Below, in pieces: positions 10,422-29,609 of a stretch of 34,624 nucleotides of DNA (the first letter of the stretch is position 1; each line of letters begins with the position of its first letter). The stretch is from a virus. The stretch lies in the IMG/VR virus record IMGVR_UViG_3300031251_000073, positions 1 through 34,624 of that record; one strand, 5' to 3'. A program made the translations under genes and the position numbers. The notes beneath the pieces are model-generated. The model was given only the letters and a program-made list of their open reading frames with translations. It made no database searches and had not been told where the DNA came from.

Positions 10422-12533
10422 TTAGTGCTTAGCGGCCATCCTAGCTTCCATAGGAGTTTGATACATAGTGTTAACCTTGTTAATCTGAGTTAGAGTGGCT
10501 CCAGATACCTTACTGTTGCCCTTTTGAGCTCCAGCTTGCCCTTGTTGTTGAGCTTGTTGAGGTCCTGCTGAGTGCACGATGGCCTGCATTGCTTGAGGGG
10601 TCATAGTTCCATCAAGTCCGTTTCCACCTATAAGAATGTTTAAAGAAGTCCTTTGAGCATAAGGAATACTCTTGTCGGCTGCCTTATGCTCAACTACAGC
10701 TTGAGTAACCTTAGACACTATAGCTTTATGAAGTCCAGGATAGATAGTCTGAATCGTCTTTACATCCTGAGGCATTAGAGTGCCTTCCTTGGCGTACTTT
10801 AGCACCATCAATGGTTGCTGAGCAATGTCTAAGGCCCTGTTATATCTAGCTTGTTGTGCCTTGTTAATCGGAGGGGTGGCATCAAAAGCACTTACAGCAA
10901 CGGGTTTAGGTTTTATGTTTGAAAAGTAGGCACTGGCAGTAGCAGCAGTTGTTGCAGCTACAGTGGCATGGGCTGGTAGGTAGTGCCCTAGACTACCACC
11001 AACCTTAATAGCATTTGCTGGGTTCTGGAAAGAGTCTAGACTCTTTTGAAGCTTGTCACGAGACTCCTGATCAGGAATAAGATTTTTAGATAACACTTCT
11101 GCTCCACCCTTGAACATAGCAGCAGTAGCACTATCTAGAAGTCTCTGGCCCTTAATTACGTTTCCAATGTAGTCTAATGTTGCCTTAGCGGCAGTAGAGT
11201 CGACAGCAGATTCTACAAAAGGTTTAGCAACAGTACGTAATACTTTCCCTAGAACTCTCTCGCCCATAAACGCGCCCATAATAGGGTGTCCCACTAAGAA
11301 ACCTAATCCACCGCCAACTGCTTCTGCAGTGCCCGTACCTAAACTATTAACAAGTGCCTCAGTTCCCTTGTTGTAGATCCAGGCACCTGCCTTCGTACCG
11401 AAGCTCTCTTTGACACCTAGGTGATAGTTAAGGGAAGGAGTTGAGTCGAGTTTGAAATCATCTGGAATAGCAAGCCCAGCTTCAGTGTGGATTTCACCTA
11501 TCTTATCTGCGATGCCTTTAGTGTCATTTAGGTATTTCTTGATGTCACCCTTGGCTGCGTCAAAACCTGGAGCATTTGCTTGTAGTTCCTCAATCTTAGG
11601 AGCCAACTTACTAAGTTGCTTTTCCACCGGACTTTGCTTGGTATCTTCAGTGACTTCCTTAGCAGCTTCTTCACCAGCTCTCAACGCTGCCTGCTGAAAT
11701 TCTGGGTTGACCGATGCAGCCTTGAGACGTCCAAACATAGTGTTCATCGCCGCTTGACGTTGTAGGAGTTCTTCCTTTGCTGCTGCTAGATCTGCTGGGT
11801 TCATCTTCTGAAGGCGAGAAATTTCTGCTTGCATATCTTGTACAAAGTCAGTAGTTGCTACCTTCTTAGCACCTGAACTGAATAGAGAACCAACAGTTCC
11901 TAATGCTGCCCCACCAACACTGCCAATGACGCCAGATAGCCCAATATTGGCAGCTGCTGTGCCTAGAGTCTGATTAGGATCACCAGTAACAAGCTTGGAG
12001 AGTTCATCTGATGTAGATAGCGCTGCCATCTCAGCACCAGTTTTGATACCAGTAGATACAATCTTAGGAAGAGCATAAGCAGCAATTGCTTTTTCAGCAA
12101 GTCCGCCGACCTTAGTAACTTGTCCAGCAAGACTGGCTCCTTTAAGCTCAGGAACAAACATAGATCCTATGAAACCTGCTGCATTAGCCCCAGCGTGTTC
12201 TAACGGATTAGTGGCTTTACGCCCCCTGATAGCTTCACCAGTTGTAAGTCCTGATGCTATTTCCATAGCTGGAGCAAGTGGCCCAATGACACCTTCAGCA
12301 GCACCTTCTGCTACTGTTAATGCTTGCTGTGGGATAGTCCCATACTTCTCGTTATTCTGGTACTCTGCTGCTGCTTGAGGATTAAGGTCTGGGAAATTAC
12401 TGAAGTCGTATTCACTTGCTGCAGAACCAGGTGTTGGAGTAGGAGGCAGTTGTGATACACCTGTTCCACCCTGTGAAGGAGACACTGCTGGACTAATAGA
12501 TGGGAGGTCAGAGAAATCAAGTTGTTCTGACAT
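10422..12533 (-). CDS. Internal virion (ejection) protein, 703 aa
   Basis: The 703-residue product is the third of three consecutive large Ala/Gln-rich proteins that hold the position of podovirus internal core proteins, which leave the head with the DNA and form a channel through the host envelope. The N-terminus has two short DFS motifs (LDFSDLP and YDFSNFP) joined by a Pro/Thr linker. Residues 75-240 and 395-440 contain long glycine- and alanine-rich hydrophobic helices that could insert in membranes. Residues about 240-330 look like a coiled coil. The last 150 residues are Gln-rich with GGNGLDGTMTPQAMQAI, reminiscent of a peptidoglycan-binding helix set, but no catalytic lysozyme or transglycosylase motif is visible. 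The ATG follows the previous stop directly, with AAGGAAAG upstream. Confidence 0.75.
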   Translation of the reverse strand: MSEQLDFSDLPSISPAVSPSQGGTGVSQLPPTPTPGSAASEYDFSNFPDLNPQAAAEYQNNEKYGTIPQQALTVAEGAAEGVIGPLAPAMEIASGLTTGEAIRGRKATNPLEHAGANAAGFIGSMFVPELKGASLAGQVTKVGGLAEKAIAAYALPKIVSTGIKTGAEMAALSTSDELSKLVTGDPNQTLGTAAANIGLSGVIGSVGGAALGTVGSLFSSGAKKVATTDFVQDMQAEISRLQKMNPADLAAAKEELLQRQAAMNTMFGRLKAASVNPEFQQAALRAGEEAAKEVTEDTKQSPVEKQLSKLAPKIEELQANAPGFDAAKGDIKKYLNDTKGIADKIGEIHTEAGLAIPDDFKLDSTPSLNYHLGVKESFGTKAGAWIYNKGTEALVNSLGTGTAEAVGGGLGFLVGHPIMGAFMGERVLGKVLRTVAKPFVESAVDSTAAKATLDYIGNVIKGQRLLDSATAAMFKGGAEVLSKNLIPDQESRDKLQKSLDSFQNPANAIKVGGSLGHYLPAHATVAATTAATASAYFSNIKPKPVAVSAFDATPPINKAQQARYNRALDIAQQPLMVLKYAKEGTLMPQDVKTIQTIYPGLHKAIVSKVTQAVVEHKAADKSIPYAQRTSLNILIGGNGLDGTMTPQAMQAIVHSAGPQQAQQQGQAGAQKGNSKVSGATLTQINKVNTMYQTPMEARMAAKH

Positions 12534-14114
12534 TTAAATCTTTCCTTGCTCACGCAGTGCCTTGATTAAATCACCTTGGGAGACATTTGGATACTTAGCT
12601 TGTGCTGCTTGAAGGACTTGTTGCTGTTGAGGATTTAGACCTGATGGTGCTTGCGCTTGACTAAACGGTGTGATGCCCATCGAAGTCATTGCTGAGTTTC
12701 TATCAGAGTCAAGTTGAGCTTTTAGGTTCTTAAGAGTTTGTAAAGTCCCACCAAGGTTAACTCCACCAATATCACCGACTTGTTTGCCATAGTTTTGATA
12801 CTCACGGTCGTTAAGTCTGTTCAATCCTGTCATCTTGTTAAGAGACACTTGAATTGCTTCTCTATCAGAATTAGCATCAGCCCGGTTCTTAACACTCCAA
12901 GCACCAGTCATCCCATATTGTTCCTGATCAGCTATAGCTTTATCAATTAGAGGTGCTAACTCGTTCATATTAGCAAGACGCTCAGCATCTGGTTGGGCGA
13001 CTGAGTGAGAAGCAACACCTACGCCAGGAACATACTTAGATTGTGCGTCTTTGTAGAGTTCTGGATTGATGCGCTGAGCATTAGCAAGAACAGTCTTATA
13101 CTGAGCCTCAGACCCTGCTCCTCCACCACCTGTACCATTGAAAGCACTTGCTTGAGCCATAAGATGAGCATTTTGAACTAACGGTATCATCTGCTGCTGG
13201 AGCTGAGAGATAGCAAGGGCACCATTAGCTTGAGCCATTGGTGTTCCTGCCTTATCAGCTGCTTCCTTGATCTTAGAGGCATAGATACCTAGTTGAGTAG
13301 CTTTAGCCATATTCTCTGCTACTGCTGCATTCTTGTACTGATCCAGATACCCGTTATAGACGTTAATCTTATTATTTTGATTACTTTTTTGTGCTGCAAT
13401 GTCCCTATCAATTTGACTATTCAACCACTCCATGGCAGGATTACCTTGGTGGGTGAAAGCACTACTGAAACCACCTAGAAGAAGACCAATACCAGTTGCT
13501 ATCCTTTGTCCAGTATTCTCCTTCATAGTATCAAGGTAGTGATTAGGCTTAATATGATCATTTCGTACGTCTGTCAGAGCCTGTTCGATTTGGTTTTGCA
13601 TGGAGTTGCTTGTAACATCCCACTTAGTAGCAGCATCCTGAAGATCCAGTTGATTCTGGTGTTCAATGGCAGCTTGATCTGTAGCAAGACCTGCTTCTGC
13701 GGCTGTCTTTGCCTTGATAGCGCCTACTTGATTAGAGTAAACATTATTGAGGTTTAAAGAATCAGTTAAAGATGCTTTAGGAGATGCGGTTGGCTTGCTG
13801 GCTGGTTGATGAGTATCAGGTGGAGCTTCTGCTACTACTTTATCTGGTGCCGCTGCTACTGGAGCCGCTGCTTCTTCACTGTCAGGATCAACTGGTTCTA
13901 CACCTTCTGGTAGTGGTGCTTCTGGACCTGGCTGTGGGGTAGGAGTAGGACCACCTTCAGCTAAGTGAATAGGAAGTTTCTCTAGTTGCTTACGCATCAC
14001 AGCAGGAAGAGCATGTTTAGCCATGATGATGTGATGTCCATCTTTGGACACCATAGTTACTGAATGCTTGTCTTCCTTGATCTTTTTAAAGCTAGACAGG
14101 TTAAGACCGCGCAT
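12534..14114 (-). CDS. Internal virion protein, 526 aa
   Basis: The 526-residue product begins with a compact module (NLSSFKKIKEDKHSVTM, then KDGHHIIMAKHAL and LAEGG) that recurs at the start of virion proteins in many podovirus-like genomes. It is followed by a Pro/Glu/Ala linker at about 55-115, long helices, a glycine-zipper segment (IATGIGLLLGGFSSAF) near residue 210, and a Gln-rich C-terminus. It probably belongs to the ejectosome with its neighbours. Its ATG overlaps the previous TAA (TAATG), with GAGGTAAG as the ribosome site. No enzyme motif is seen. Confidence 0.75.
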   Translation of the reverse strand: MRGLNLSSFKKIKEDKHSVTMVSKDGHHIIMAKHALPAVMRKQLEKLPIHLAEGGPTPTPQPGPEAPLPEGVEPVDPDSEEAAAPVAAAPDKVVAEAPPDTHQPASKPTASPKASLTDSLNLNNVYSNQVGAIKAKTAAEAGLATDQAAIEHQNQLDLQDAATKWDVTSNSMQNQIEQALTDVRNDHIKPNHYLDTMKENTGQRIATGIGLLLGGFSSAFTHQGNPAMEWLNSQIDRDIAAQKSNQNNKINVYNGYLDQYKNAAVAENMAKATQLGIYASKIKEAADKAGTPMAQANGALAISQLQQQMIPLVQNAHLMAQASAFNGTGGGGAGSEAQYKTVLANAQRINPELYKDAQSKYVPGVGVASHSVAQPDAERLANMNELAPLIDKAIADQEQYGMTGAWSVKNRADANSDREAIQVSLNKMTGLNRLNDREYQNYGKQVGDIGGVNLGGTLQTLKNLKAQLDSDRNSAMTSMGITPFSQAQAPSGLNPQQQQVLQAAQAKYPNVSQGDLIKALREQGKI

Positions 14115-22191: not shown

Positions 22192-23316
22192 TTATTCGCC
22201 GGAAATTAAGATAGATCCAGCTTCAACCTGGAAGGTCAAACTAACAATTGATCCAGCAGCTGGAGCAGTAGGCACCAAAGTGGTGGTGCTAGAGTTAGTA
22301 GCAGCTAAGAATTGAACTAAGATATACCCACCAACGTTAGGTGAACCACCCATTGGGATTGGAGCGAAAGTTTGATTAGGGTCACCGATTACTTCAATAG
22401 AGGTGAGTCCTGAGATAGAAGGAGCTTGAACTAATCCAGTGCTTCCACCGCGACTAGAATAACCAGTAGCAGTAGCAATAAAAGCTGCTCCAACCGCTGG
22501 AGTAACACCTTTATTTAAACCAACTGCTTGCCAGTTTTGTAAGTTGGTTTGATCCTTGGTTACTGCGAAAGTAAAACCAGTAGAGATTGTTCCGTCAGCA
22601 GGTCCACCAGGAAGTGGTCCAGTACCAGTACTTACGATGGTGACAGTAGTAGTTCCAGAAGACGTAAACGAGTAAACACCAGCAATGTCAGATGGTAATA
22701 AGTTGATGGTATTAACTAATGCGGCACCAATTGTAGCGGCAGAACTTCCGGAAGCGATTGTTTGCTGAATATAGCTAATACCAGGTTGGCCAATTGCGGC
22801 AGCTGGTCCAAGGTTTGGAGCATTCCCACCAACACCAGTAACATAAAACCAGATTACGAAAGTATTTCCATAAGCATCATATAAGCTAAAATAGGTAGAA
22901 GCTAATGAGCCGGAAACGTCAGCGACAGGGGCCACTGTAACTGTTCCAGCTGTAGGAGCTCCAACAGAAGTAATGACGTAAGGATTACCAATAGTGAGTG
23001 CGGTAGCATTAATTGCTAGATTAGAGCCGGACAAAGGAGATACGAATCCAGAAAATCCACCAGCATAACGATTATAGTTATTGGAAAGTTGAATTAGAGC
23101 ATAACCAGCGGCGGGGTTAGGATTTCCAGCAGCTGGAGTAGCAGTAGTATGCATATAAACAGCCTGCACACCAGACCCTTTGAGTGAACGAATACCAAGG
23201 CCGTTACCATTGGTATTATCAACAATGAAGTTACAATCAATAGTGACTGGTTTGTTCAGGAATGAATAATTACGACCGCCGTTATTACCGAGTTTATTAG
23301 AAGCAATGTTAGACAT
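22192..23316 (-). CDS. Abundant head-associated beta protein, decoration candidate
   Basis: The 374-residue protein is rich in Gly, Ala, Thr and Val, begins MSNIASNKLGNNGGRNYSFL and is beta-patterned throughout. No family is recognised. It lies directly downstream of the major capsid gene (apart from the inserted endonuclease) and is enclosed between two strong terminators, a pattern expected for a highly expressed structural protein. Head decoration or cement protein is the best guess; a major tail or appendage protein is possible. A weak AAGG lies about 12 bases before the ATG. Confidence 0.65.
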   Translation of the reverse strand: MSNIASNKLGNNGGRNYSFLNKPVTIDCNFIVDNTNGNGLGIRSLKGSGVQAVYMHTTATPAAGNPNPAAGYALIQLSNNYNRYAGGFSGFVSPLSGSNLAINATALTIGNPYVITSVGAPTAGTVTVAPVADVSGSLASTYFSLYDAYGNTFVIWFYVTGVGGNAPNLGPAAAIGQPGISYIQQTIASGSSAATIGAALVNTINLLPSDIAGVYSFTSSGTTTVTIVSTGTGPLPGGPADGTISTGFTFAVTKDQTNLQNWQAVGLNKGVTPAVGAAFIATATGYSSRGGSTGLVQAPSISGLTSIEVIGDPNQTFAPIPMGGSPNVGGYILVQFLAATNSSTTTLVPTAPAAGSIVSLTFQVEAGSILISGE

Positions 23317-23425
23317 GTTTAGGACCCTTGTTACCCGTAATAAGATGCTTCCTGAGTGACGGGTGGCTAGTCAAGGAAGGTAGTAGATTGGGTCCACTAT
23401 CTATGCCTAACTGGCCAGTTTAGGG

Positions 23426-23465
23426 AAATAAAAGAGCCACCTAAGAACTCAATCCTAGGTGGCTC
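23426..23465 (-). terminator. Intrinsic terminator after the GIY-YIG gene
   Basis: GAGCCACCTA (23434-23443) and TAGGTGGCTC (23456-23465) form a perfect ten-base-pair stem with a 12-base loop. On the minus strand it is followed by TTTTATTTCCC. This is a strong rho-independent terminator for leftward transcription. Confidence 0.85.
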
Positions 23466-23498
23466 AGTTGAAAGGAGGAACGTATGGATACGAGGGGA

Positions 23499-24563
23499 TT
23501 ATACAGATTTCAGGAAATCAAGGCATTCCTGGCTAGTTCCGGTGAAGAGGGCTGTAACCATAGGACCAACCGCTTTAATAGTAGATGAAGATGTAGAGTT
23601 TCTTAACATTCTTCTTTGCAAGATTACTTCTTTAATTTCAACTATTTGAATTATAGATACTACATAACCTAAAGATTCTAGATTTTTCTTAGCAGTACTA
23701 GCAGCAACTGGAAGTCCCAGTAATATGGGTTTATCTTTTACAACTTCTTTATTAAGTTGTAACCAAAGTTGGCTTTTGCCAACGCCATCTCTTTCTAGCA
23801 CACAAAACTTGTCCTTGAGTTGATCAGCAACCCATGATTTGCCAATACCAGATGGTCCTGTTAGCACATAGATGTGCTGAGTAAGCCCTGTCGCAGGAGC
23901 AACTTCTTTCATCAGTCTAGCAAATAGACCTGGCTTTTTATCTTTGTTCCAAGGTGATTTGCCGGCATTAAAAGCATGAAGCTTAGTCAAAGCAGCTTGC
24001 TCAGACTTAGATAACCCCAATAATTTACGTTTGGCCCTAGCTAATTTAGCAGAAGCAGACATTTTAGCTTTGGATTCTTCTGATGCCTTTTTACCTATTT
24101 GAGCTTTTGCCATATTTGCCTTGATTTCATCACTCCACTTACGACCTAGATTAGAACCTACTGCACCAGTTAAGACCTTAGATAGATGATCTTTTTGCTC
24201 TTGAGTGAGCTTGCGGCCCTTATTAGCTCTACTTATTTTATCCTTGGTTTCCTGTGAGGAGAAAAACTTGCCGTCGCCACCTGAAGTGCAGTTGTATCCA
24301 TTTGGATGAATGCAATTTAGAGTTTGTATCCAATGCCTCTCCTTAGCATTTAGTTCCTCTTGAGTTGTCGTATTTGGAAGAATTTCAAGTATCTCAATAC
24401 TAAAAGCAGCCAAACCATAACTGCGCATTGCAGCATATAACGGATGTTGCTTACCGCTTCTTGCCTTCCACTGATGATGAGTCCATCTTTTCTTTAACTC
24501 TTGAACCGTTTGACCTACATAAACCTTCAATGAAACCGTATTGGCTATCTTATAAATTATCAT
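23499..24563 (-). CDS. GIY-YIG endonuclease with NUMOD3 repeats fused to a P-loop NTPase domain
   Basis: The 354-residue protein has a GIY-YIG nuclease at residues 1-95 (IIYKI, then VYVGQT, R26, E75 and GYNCTSGGDG), a variant in which the classic GIY/YIG letters are IIY/YVG. Residues 103-175 hold NUMOD3-type DNA-binding repeats (KISRANKGRKLT, LGRKWSDEIKANM). Residues 228-354 are a separate domain with a Walker A loop (GPSGIGKS, 237-244) and an LPVAAS segment, resembling a small nucleotide kinase. Fusion of a homing-type nuclease to such a domain is unusual. The gene is set between two terminators, has its own -10 box six bases upstream of the ATG and no ribosome site, all signs of a mobile gene placed after the capsid gene. 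Confidence 0.9.
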   Translation of the reverse strand: MIIYKIANTVSLKVYVGQTVQELKKRWTHHQWKARSGKQHPLYAAMRSYGLAAFSIEILEILPNTTTQEELNAKERHWIQTLNCIHPNGYNCTSGGDGKFFSSQETKDKISRANKGRKLTQEQKDHLSKVLTGAVGSNLGRKWSDEIKANMAKAQIGKKASEESKAKMSASAKLARAKRKLLGLSKSEQAALTKLHAFNAGKSPWNKDKKPGLFARLMKEVAPATGLTQHIYVLTGPSGIGKSWVADQLKDKFCVLERDGVGKSQLWLQLNKEVVKDKPILLGLPVAASTAKKNLESLGYVVSIIQIVEIKEVILQRRMLRNSTSSSTIKAVGPMVTALFTGTSQECLDFLKSV

Positions 24564-24569
24564 AGTAAA

Positions 24570-24575
24570 ATTATA
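24570..24575 (-). promoter_or_regulatory. Extended -10 promoter of the GIY-YIG gene, leaderless start
   Basis: On the minus strand the sequence is TGGTATAAT, a perfect -10 hexamer with the TGn extension. Six bases separate it from the ATG at 24563, so transcription would begin at or next to the start codon. No Shine-Dalgarno site is present. There is no good -35 match. Confidence 0.6.
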
Positions 24576-24611
24576 CCATAACTATCCAATAGCTGTTCCA
24601 TTTTTTTGTAG

Positions 24612-24651
24612 AAAAATAAAAAGGGACCAGAACATTTAAGTCCTGATCCCT
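24612..24651 (-). terminator. Strong intrinsic terminator after the capsid gene
   Basis: On the minus strand AGGGATCAGGAC pairs with GTTCTGGTCCCT (12 base pairs including two G-U) around a six-base loop, followed by TTTTATTTTT. It ends the capsid transcript 28 bases after the stop codon. Confidence 0.88.
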
Positions 24652-24679
24652 ATTTAATGAATCAAATCAATGATTTAGA

Positions 24680-26005
24680 TTACTGAGACAGAGAAACTAC
24701 AGCGTTAGCAACAGGACTTGAGCAAGTAAGGTTGCCATATCCGCCGACCGCAGTTTGCACAGCATCCTGGCCAGCCACTGGAAGACCAATTTGGTCAAAC
24801 AATCCTGGGTAGGTGATAAACTGGGCCATCTTGCCGTTAAAGCGAAGCTTCCACGTCTTAAGGGTGATGATGTACGCTGTTTGAGGCGCACAGTTGCGGT
24901 CTTGAAGTATCGCTATCTCACCGTTAGCCGTTGGGAGTACCAATGCCTTAAACGATAGGGATGCTTCCTCATTGATCTTAGCCTTGATCATCTGGTACAC
25001 GCCTTGGCTAGTCAACTGCTTCAATAGCGCCTGGTAAGAGGCTGGATTGATGAAGATGAAGTCAGGATCACCAGCTTCGGTGCCTTGAGCCGCAAGAGTG
25101 TTAACTGCGTCAATAAGTGCGTCTTGGATAGATTCACTAGATCCTGAGAAACGCAATCCAGCGAGCTGGGTTGGAGACACAGAACGATTGACACTGAAGA
25201 ATAGGTCAGATCCGCTTGGAGCAGTGCTTGGGATCCAAGCTCCGAAACCAGCCATCTTCAACATGTTAGCAGAACTAAGTCCGTTAGTGATGAAATTGAC
25301 ATCGCCGATCTGAGCGAGGTAAGGGAAAGAAGTTGACCAGTTGGAAGGAACCCCAGCAGCACCAGCGAAGGTAGCTGATACCGTTACAGTTCCAGCACCA
25401 GTATCAACTGCTATGACGTATCCTACTGCTGCGCCAGTACTCTGAGTAGGAGTCTGGCCAGAAACACTGTAGCTTACGAGAGCCATACCAGGAGTGAAGT
25501 TGAGGGCTGATTGAGCACTATCAAGAGTGATAACACCACTCGAAATAGATCCAGCACCAAGTCCGTAAGTTCCACGTTTACCTGACCCGTCACCGAACAA
25601 CATAAGAGCATAGTCATTTCCAAGAGACTGAAATGCAGACTTAACGTTAAGTTCAGCAGCTGGCATGAAGGCGCCAACTGATTCAGCAGAGGCTCTCAAG
25701 AAGTCACCGGTAAGGACAAAGTTTGAGTAGTTTTGAGTACGAGTGACTTGGAATTCAACCGTTTGTGGAGCAGAAGAGTTGTTTTGAGCAATGCCTAAAG
25801 CAGCAGAACGACCGCCACCTGGATTCACTAGAGCTGGGATCGGGAAGTACTTACCGCCCATACCAGATTCACTTTCGTCTTTGTCGATGAGAGCCAGAGC
25901 TGGATTCCTATTTAGGATGTACGACTTCATTACCCATGCGTCGTCTGAATAGAGTTCCTTTAGAGTTGCAACGTTAGTTACTGCACTTGATGTACTGTTT
26001 GACAT
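24680..26005 (-). CDS. Major capsid protein, HK97-type fold
   Basis: The 441-residue protein has the length and layout of podovirus major capsid proteins: an N-arm, an E-loop region (about 40-105, including GKYFPIPALVNPGGG), a P-domain helix (SVGAFMPAAELNVKSAFQSL), and a C-terminal A-domain (DPDFIFINPASYQALLKQL, then WKLRFNGKMAQFITY). Between about 152 and 232 lies an additional beta region with SSGVITLDSAQSALNFTPGM and GAGTVTVSATF, which may be a surface insertion. It comes after the scaffold gene and before a strong terminator. GGATAATTAAATG at the start means the ribosome site overlaps the scaffold stop. The identification rests on position and pattern, not on a database match. Confidence 0.88.
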   Translation of the reverse strand: MSNSTSSAVTNVATLKELYSDDAWVMKSYILNRNPALALIDKDESESGMGGKYFPIPALVNPGGGRSAALGIAQNNSSAPQTVEFQVTRTQNYSNFVLTGDFLRASAESVGAFMPAAELNVKSAFQSLGNDYALMLFGDGSGKRGTYGLGAGSISSGVITLDSAQSALNFTPGMALVSYSVSGQTPTQSTGAAVGYVIAVDTGAGTVTVSATFAGAAGVPSNWSTSFPYLAQIGDVNFITNGLSSANMLKMAGFGAWIPSTAPSGSDLFFSVNRSVSPTQLAGLRFSGSSESIQDALIDAVNTLAAQGTEAGDPDFIFINPASYQALLKQLTSQGVYQMIKAKINEEASLSFKALVLPTANGEIAILQDRNCAPQTAYIITLKTWKLRFNGKMAQFITYPGLFDQIGLPVAGQDAVQTAVGGYGNLTCSSPVANAVVSLSQ

Positions 26006-28969: not shown

Positions 28970-29350
28970 TTAATTACCCAACCTTTTCATATACTGAACT
29001 AAACCTTCAGCGTTCTTAGATGATTTAAGATAACCTTCTGCAAGATTGCAAGGTTTGCAGAGTAAACCTCTGATTTGATTGGTTATATGATCATGGTCAA
29101 CGCATAATGCCATTTTAAGATCATTCTGATGAGTCCCGCAACTAGCACATTGACCAGCTTGAGCATTCATCATTTCGTAGTAGTTATCTAAAGCTTGTTT
29201 AGAAGTTAAAGTTGGCCAATACCTATGTCTAAGCCAATTAGCTCGATACCTAGTTGGATTGTTTTCCTTCCAAGCACGGGAAGCAATTCGATTACACTCT
29301 ATACATTGAGCACTTTCGTATTGATGTAAACCAGATCTACAAGTTTTCAT
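28970..29350 (-). CDS. Recombination endonuclease VII-like protein
   Basis: The 126-residue protein has the zinc and active-site pattern of the endonuclease VII (His-Me finger) family: QCASCG, then CVDHDHITNQIRGLLC, KPCNLAEGYL and a C-terminal helix (NAEGLVQYMKRL). The N-terminal part (KTCRSGLHQYESAQCIECNR) has another cysteine set. Members cut branched DNA before packaging or act as homing nucleases. The ATG at 29350 overlaps the previous gene by 14 bases; the frame extends to 29533 but that part is Leu/Ser/Arg-rich shadow sequence. Its stop touches the portal's TTG start, which suggests it was inserted here. Confidence 0.9.
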   Translation of the reverse strand: MKTCRSGLHQYESAQCIECNRIASRAWKENNPTRYRANWLRHRYWPTLTSKQALDNYYEMMNAQAGQCASCGTHQNDLKMALCVDHDHITNQIRGLLCKPCNLAEGYLKSSKNAEGLVQYMKRLGN

Positions 29351-29609
29351 TAGCAGAATCCTCAGTAGGCAAGGGGAACAAGCGATCAAGGAGGTCAAGA
29401 TCAGATCCAAGGTATAGAGCCTTGACTTGCTCAATCTTGTGCTCAATCTCTTTCTGCTCCTCAGGAGTGAACTCTTTGGTCTTAACCTCTGCCTTAGGGA
29501 TAGGAGCAACGGAGATGTCAAGGTTGAGCTCAAACTCAGGGGTCTTCAAGTGAGTAATCCCTAATAGTTTCATCTGCTTTGCTATCTTCTTTAGTTCTTT
29601 GGAGTCCAT
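29337..29609 (-). CDS. Hypothetical 90-aa acidic protein
   Basis: A 90-residue acidic protein with an N-terminal basic helix (MDSKELKKIAKQMKLLG), a middle with IPKAEVKTKEFTPEEQKEIE and a Leu-rich end (LDLLDRLFPLPTEDS). It has no recognised family or good ribosome site. It follows the 97-aa gene by six bases and overlaps the endonuclease gene. It belongs to a run of small acidic genes between terminase and portal, perhaps head assembly factors. Confidence 0.65.
   Translation of the reverse strand: MDSKELKKIAKQMKLLGITHLKTPEFELNLDISVAPIPKAEVKTKEFTPEEQKEIEHKIEQVKALYLGSDLDLLDRLFPLPTEDSANENL

Follow-up and report, generated by a model that had tools for sequence, protein, structure and literature searches.

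The window, by which we mean the whole 34,624-base virus record analyzed here, appears to carry a free-standing homing endonuclease gene that encodes an exchangeable kinase-fold module and sits as an insert between the capsid gene and its downstream neighbour, a reading to which we assign a probability of roughly two in three. The gene lies on the minus strand together with terminase, portal, SU10-like capsid, and adaptor genes, and the features discussed below are collected in Table 1.

The gene is one intact frame that begins with ATG and runs for 354 codons without an internal stop. Its N-terminal half matches the Pfam GIY-YIG domain at 32.3 bits (cut-off, 22.6) over residues 2 to 91, and three stretches match NUMOD3 at 37.3 bits (cut-off, 20.4). 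An earlier reading of this DNA from sequence alone (the sequence-only reading) had proposed a GIY-YIG nuclease with NUMOD3 repeats, and both assignments are borne out by these scores. The protein also matches PHROG 314, a homing endonuclease family (2e-34), and, over residues 3 to 186, the NCBIfam group I intron endonuclease model TIGR01453 (81.7 bits; cut-off, 56.05). In an alignment with 10 fused relatives, Y4, Y15, R26, H30, the Glu of KERHW, and the Asn of GYN are all kept; we take the catalytic roles of these two tyrosines and of the Arg, His, Glu, and Asn from I-TevI. Thus, the nuclease and its NUMOD3 repeats are apparently intact. We considered whether the gene encodes a group I intron endonuclease and rejected this, because no Rfam model reached its gathering score in the window and the capsid frame is uninterrupted; at E ≤ 1, the window matched snoRNA and miRNA models alone, far below gathering. 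An Rfam intron search of ten loci likewise found none.

Table 1. Features of the endonuclease gene and its surroundings in the window
Feature	Position	Strand	Basis or remark
Free-standing GIY-YIG homing endonuclease gene with C-terminal P-loop kinase-like module	23499..24563	-	354 aa; homologues L258 and L276 at same site
GIY-YIG catalytic domain, residues 2-91	24291..24560	-	Pfam; alignment with 10 fused relatives
Best NUMOD3 stretch, residues 116-152 (DNA-binding repeats)	24108..24218	-	Pfam
P-loop kinase-like module, residues 228-354 (~127 aa)	23502..23882	-	Profile of relatives; AlphaFold2; fold matches
Walker A GPSGIGKS, residues 236-243	23835..23858	-	Sequence; alignment
Asp259, end of beta-2	23787..23789	-	48/48 rows; falls on D35 of T4 polynucleotide kinase
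Gly283, Walker B (beta-3) position; probable loss	23715..23717	-	Asp/Glu in 41/48 rows
Arg321, lid arginine	23601..23603	-	48/48 rows
Major capsid protein gene (SU10-like), upstream neighbour	24680..26005	-	Pfam PF17236
Terminator-like hairpin of capsid gene, upstream of endonuclease gene	24622..24651	-	Sequence
TGGTATAAT, extended -10-like, ends 6 nt before ATG; possible own promoter, near-leaderless	24570..24578	-	Sequence; inference
Second terminator-like hairpin, downstream of endonuclease gene	23434..23465	-	Sequence
Downstream neighbour; next gene at empty site in relatives	22192..23316	-	Locus comparison

Along the minus strand, the capsid gene comes first, then a terminator-like hairpin, the endonuclease gene, a second such hairpin, and the next gene. 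A scan for capsid relatives yielded 47 loci, in 39 of which we could place the end of the capsid gene as well as the next gene; the distance between them is less than 250 bp in 29 of the 39 and larger in the remaining 10. The two nearest capsid relatives with both flanking genes in view have an empty site, with gaps of 164 bp (L005, capsid 93% identical) and 198 bp (L006, 91%). These short gaps indicate that the endonuclease gene has been inserted downstream of the capsid terminator and ahead of a conserved element that precedes the next gene.

That element is RNA-like and occupies positions 23317 to 23398 of the minus strand, with the endonuclease gene inserted just upstream. Its sequence includes the motif GACTAG, and it apparently folds into an H-type pseudoknot (ACCCGT/ACGGGT in the window), whose stem has counterparts in TTCCCCGA/TCGGGGAA of L014, GCGCTTCA/TGAAGCGC of L020, and CCCATGG/CCATGGG of L019. 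By a simple script, stem 2 forms 6 pairs in 16 of 17 sequences (shuffle means, 3.6 to 6.0), and stem 1 forms at least 4 pairs in 11 of the 17, with four rows mis-anchored. No Rfam family matched the element.

The space between the capsid and next genes (23316 to 24680 in the window) appears to be a hot spot for extra genes in this phage group. By reading, we noted HNH genes there in L016 and L034 and sugar- or methyltransferase-like genes in L015, L016, L029, and L032, and L007 (capsid 92% identical) has another GIY-YIG gene, cut by the contig end. In the crAss-like phage cr56_1 (L004:1986-2660), a GIY-YIG homing endonuclease gene without the module lies directly behind the major head gene, suggesting that capsid-adjacent homing recurs in another phage group. 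Separately, the capsid frame itself is interrupted in L017, L026, L027, L045, L255, and L353. The interruptions in L255 and L353 are HNH-like genes, and Rfam found no intron at the interrupted loci of L017, L027, L045, L255, and L353. Both HNH-like genes are related to an endonuclease VII/HNH-like ORF that we recognized by reading between the terminase and portal genes of the window (28970-29533, minus strand), which is likely a second homing gene of the phage.

The same two-part protein occurs at the same site in distant relatives. Over its whole length, the window protein can be aligned with L258 (31.8% identity over 365 aa, E 1.3e-42) and with L276 (26% over 366 aa, E 2.8e-20), and in L258 (identical to L263 and L325) and L276 the fusion gene lies directly behind a capsid gene whose product is 34% and 31% identical, respectively, to that of the window. 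A looser form of the linkage is seen in L269, L255, and L308, which are among the 20 stand-alone loci examined, and in L283, a near-copy of L269. Behind the capsid gene of L269 and L283 come a GIY-YIG gene and next a separate gene for the module, 10 nt further on in L269; in L255 and L308, an HNH gene touches or adjoins a stand-alone module gene. The fusion of a nuclease to a P-loop domain, proposed in the sequence-only reading, is therefore upheld by the single frame and by these full-length homologues, which also answer its suggestion to look for the same fusion in other phages. The error that it had entertained, in assembly or frame, is contradicted by the recurrence of the fusion at the same site. 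The idea that two unrelated genes were read through, or were joined as a chimera in assembly, has in its favor that a search with the whole window protein returned no other copy of that exact protein; given the single open frame and the homologues at the same site, we regard this explanation as refuted. As a separate observation, L281, with a capsid 63% identical to that of the window, has an empty capsid/next-gene site and carries a stand-alone module gene upstream of its portal gene (12431-12856, minus strand).

We then considered what the C-terminal module might be. Pfam sees only its P-loop, through weak AAA-type models that are all below cut-off, and neither Pfam nor PHROG holds a family specific to it. 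AlphaFold2, run on the window module with a 48-row alignment of relatives (A3), gave a model with pLDDT 88.2 and pTM 0.82; the whole window protein modeled without an alignment reached a pLDDT of 36.7. The predicted structure is a compact P-loop kinase fold, in which a Walker A and a kinase-type alpha/beta core are both present. Foldseek placed gluconate kinases and mammalian polynucleotide kinase at the top among PDB entries (best E, 1.1e-4) and a phage polynucleotide kinase/phosphatase at the top in BFVD (1.5e-4). With VIA-align, the kinase-fold matches span Z scores of 10.7 to 12: O-phosphoseryl-tRNA kinase (PSTK) at 12.0 (2.7 Å, 126 residues), 9drz at 11.8, guanylate kinase at 11.7, adenylate kinases at 11.6, gluconate kinase at 11.3, and the Clostridium thermocellum polynucleotide kinase (Pnkp) at 10.9. 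In profile searches, gluconate kinase (3.5e-8) and 9drz (1.1e-7) were the best near-full-length matches, and for the T4-type polynucleotide kinase the entry 1ly1 was matched at E 0.0033. The small-kinase domain that the sequence-only reading had drawn from GPSGIGKS onward is thus supported by model and matches alike, and the polynucleotide kinases with which it had proposed a comparison are among those matches. Because PSTK and gluconate, guanylate, adenylate, and polynucleotide kinases tie within about 1 Z, the fold does not single out a substrate. We also dropped the idea that the module is a guanylate kinase without its GMP arm, as fold scores separate no kinase types.

Conservation across the 48 aligned rows gives a second view of the module. 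Within the Walker A, G236, G239, and S/T243 are present in all 48 rows and G241 and K242 in 47; the conservation of this motif, and of the W, Q, and L residues, is partly by construction, since the search pattern selects for them. D259 and R321, invariant in the same rows, lie outside that pattern. R317 is found in 41 rows and an arginine at position 332 in 42, and position 283 is acidic in 41 (24 D, 17 E); Glu (ETPF) tends to mark stand-alone copies and Asp (YDPT) fused ones. An hhalign comparison with T4 polynucleotide kinase (probability 94.6, over 34 columns only) sets D259 on D35, the general base of the T4 enzyme. Taken together, the residues held family-wide (Walker A, D259, and R321) appear to fit phosphoryl transfer. 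Zeta_toxin matches from Pfam (E ≤ 0.01) were weak and concern 16 of the 48 members, the window copy not being among those listed.

The window copy departs from this pattern. In a MAFFT alignment, in which its lid is several residues shorter, it keeps the Walker A, D259, R317, and R321, and positions 283 and 332 are changed to Gly and Val, so that the catalytic set of a beta-3 acid and all lid arginines is incomplete. Of the two signs that had been named earlier as speaking against a kinase domain, the missing Walker B acid is therefore seen here (Gly283), but the other, the lack of a kinase fold, is not. With G283 and V332, the window copy may have lost activity, though its nuclease looks intact; the module probably still binds nucleotide, with phosphate transfer poor or nil.

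To find relatives of the module, we searched with DNA patterns for GxxGxGK[ST]W[VIM], two of the three including a following QL, and then screened with a profile, which returned at least 66 ORFs at E < 1e-10 and from these at least 53 distinct module sequences. All family counts are lower bounds, as the search pattern is selective. By reading, the partners of 53 module sequences are GIY-YIG nucleases in 12 (the window included), HNH nucleases in 12, and PD-(D/E)XK-like or other homing nucleases in 4; a further 22 are stand-alone (L208 being a cut copy of L246), and 3 are cut at the locus edge. Hence, each of the 28 fusions with a readable partner joins the module to a nuclease. Family models largely agree: GIY-YIG is above the Pfam cut-off in the window and in 8 of 10 other fused proteins tested (L252 is just under and L321 has no family), and HNH is above cut-off in L247 and L402. 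Nine of 10 proteins tested match HNH or endonuclease VII PHROGs, and the tenth, L341, matches "homing endonuclease." In a separate scan, L250 matched endonuclease VII. Phage_endo_I is above the Pfam cut-off in L354, of which L339 and L260 are homologues. Two architectures are unusual, with the module at the N-terminus in L252 and a second, partial module copy in L319.

The module was found in uncultured phages. Among 87 pattern stretches in bacterial and archaeal genomes, full-length relatives occur in L402 alone, and two module matches were found in the bacterial bin of L402 and in 6 of 20 virus records tested (the second match of G018 is partial). The relaxed pattern recovered, among the matches listed, L132, L187, L198, and L208, and a further pattern recovered most of the family. 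The strict P-loop pattern gave 74 stretches that belong to RecA-like, AAA+, or IstB-like proteins or to short frames, with no relative among them, and a pattern scan with the P-loop part by itself gave 9 matches and no relative. With six module sequences (window, L247, L250, L303, L294, and L258), tblastn against 50,697 phage records found no credible relative; the L250 module drew three matches at E 0.3, one annotated as shikimate kinase. Against plasmids, the P-loop part drew 267 records, the 30 listed all having E values of about 7. H71, which we read as an elongation-factor-like protein, was rejected as a relative. The PHROG families around stand-alone copies (60 neighbour proteins) include portal, terminase, HNH, and endonuclease; no RNA ligase is among the 25 of 89 families listed, which concern 60 of 82 neighbour proteins.

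We next asked how the module is distributed over its nucleases. When L208, L260, and L287 (partial or duplicate) are left out and the other 50 of the 53 module sequences are placed in a tree, 20 of 21 stand-alone copies fall together and the nuclease types are mixed in the rest. One mixed clade (support, 100/97) joins L354 (PD-(D/E)XK type) to L267 (GIY-YIG), and another (100/97) holds L339 (PD-(D/E)XK type), L402 (HNH), and the GIY-YIG proteins L318, L252, and L309. Eight type changes are needed among the GIY, HNH, and PD-(D/E)XK rows, and two for the stand-alone state. The window row sits on a long branch (1.66), and its exact placement is unsure. L339 and L402 are 81% identical over a 154-aa stretch that begins shortly ahead of the P-loop, and their nucleases differ; the modules themselves are 89% identical, with a pS of 0.65 and a dN/dS of 0.06. 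Synonymous sites were saturated in 6 of the 12 pairs tested, so that only the low dN is informative in those six. The intermixed nuclease types and the near-identical modules on differing nucleases, kept under strong purifying selection, indicate that the module has been exchanged among homing endonucleases. Phage homing endonucleases of three nuclease types are thus shown to share this exchangeable part, which selection maintains, and its recurrence on or next to several unrelated nucleases suggests that it is useful to such selfish genes. A one-off capture of a kinase gene, an origin that had been entertained earlier, is not supported, given this repeated exchange.

The window gene resembles the free-standing GIY-YIG phage homing endonucleases of the T4 Seg type (PHROG 314) in its GIY-YIG domain, NUMOD3 repeats, intergenic position beside an essential gene, and empty site in relatives, but differs from them in its P-loop kinase-fold module; 303 phage records match the window protein, none at 80% coverage. 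The module shares the P-loop kinase fold with the kinase domains of T4 polynucleotide 5'-kinase (PseT) and Pnkp, and its D259 falls on D35 of the T4 enzyme. Unlike these enzymes, it has no phosphatase part, and the profile match is confined to the 34 columns given above; the beta-2 Asp and the beta-3 acid position are 24 residues apart in the module, whereas about 50 residues separate them in the T4 kinase. PSTK, gluconate kinase, the fungal kinase 9drz, and guanylate kinase are similar in fold (Z about 11 to 12 over 120 to 131 residues), but most rows are only 10 to 20% identical to small P-loop kinases, and the module is without the NMP-binding insert that guanylate and adenylate kinases carry. 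The 2023 survey of homing endonuclease genes (HEGs), in the parts available to us, describes domain shuffling in which modules are exchanged between homing endonucleases (PMC10448857). The present module is swapped in the same manner as NUMODs, which bind DNA, but differs from them in its kinase fold and in its conserved residues of a catalytic type.

By analogy with homing biology, the nuclease would cut insert-free phage genomes at the capsid/next-gene junction, and recombination or repair would then copy the endonuclease gene into the cut site. The module would bind ATP or GTP, and copies with the full residue set might, with low confidence, transfer phosphate. Since nucleases are the only fused partners seen, a nucleic-acid end is the best single guess for the phosphate acceptor, though at well below even odds. 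GIY-YIG and HNH enzymes leave 5' phosphates, so that no kinase is needed to heal their own cuts; the module would instead act on other ends, such as host-inflicted breaks or tRNA, or serve as a switch. We propose, tentatively and at less than even odds, that these are kinase-armed homing endonucleases, in which a catalytic module common to GIY-YIG, HNH, and PD-(D/E)XK enzymes, and also kept as a separate partner gene, adds phosphate to the ends of nucleic acids (or to tRNA or protein) and thereby aids homing or pays its way against host defence.

Two other roles for the module deserve weighing. It might be a nucleotide-binding switch, or an additional part that binds nucleic acid, serving in the manner of a NUMOD to gate or place the nuclease and transferring no phosphoryl group. 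Exchange among nucleases is what NUMODs would lead one to expect, the window copy keeps its Walker A and D259 with the beta-3 acid lost, and the N-terminal domain of Rv1421 is among the fold matches (9m1v, TMq 0.67, Z 10.8). However, pure binding has no need of the residues at 259 and 321 that every row keeps, nor of the acid kept in most, and stand-alone copies of the module exist; we consider this role unlikely. Still less probable, in our view, is that the module is cargo, a small-molecule, protein, or zeta-toxin-like kinase that helps the phage or harms a rival and is spread by the endonuclease with no part in cutting. The separate clade of stand-alone copies, set among structural and other phage genes, is consistent with cargo, as are the weak Zeta_toxin matches noted above (best, 3.3e-7). 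Yet every one of the 28 readable fusions sits on a nuclease, in at least 4 of the 20 stand-alone loci the module gene comes immediately after a nuclease gene, and in the per-protein tables Zeta_toxin is above cut-off in no fused protein or module.

Homing endonucleases are well known and are usually described as a nuclease with DNA-binding parts; what appears to be new is an exchangeable kinase-fold module common to them. We found no description of a P-loop or kinase fusion of a homing endonuclease in the literature searched, which leaves most subscription journals outside it. In the portions available to us, the 2006 GIY-YIG survey contains no "P-loop," "ATPase," or "NTPase" and mentions "kinase" only for another family (PMC1564403), the 2023 survey contains neither "kinase" nor "P-loop," and a third paper makes no mention of such a fusion (PMC3943268). 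The module is conserved, is exchanged between three unrelated nuclease types, is sometimes a separate gene immediately after that of the nuclease, and is under strong purifying selection, all of which implies that homing, or else the fitness of the carrier, involves a biochemical step that the literature searched does not describe. If the kinase-armed reading is true, this would be the first case of unrelated homing endonucleases sharing a module that is an enzyme and not a DNA-binding part.
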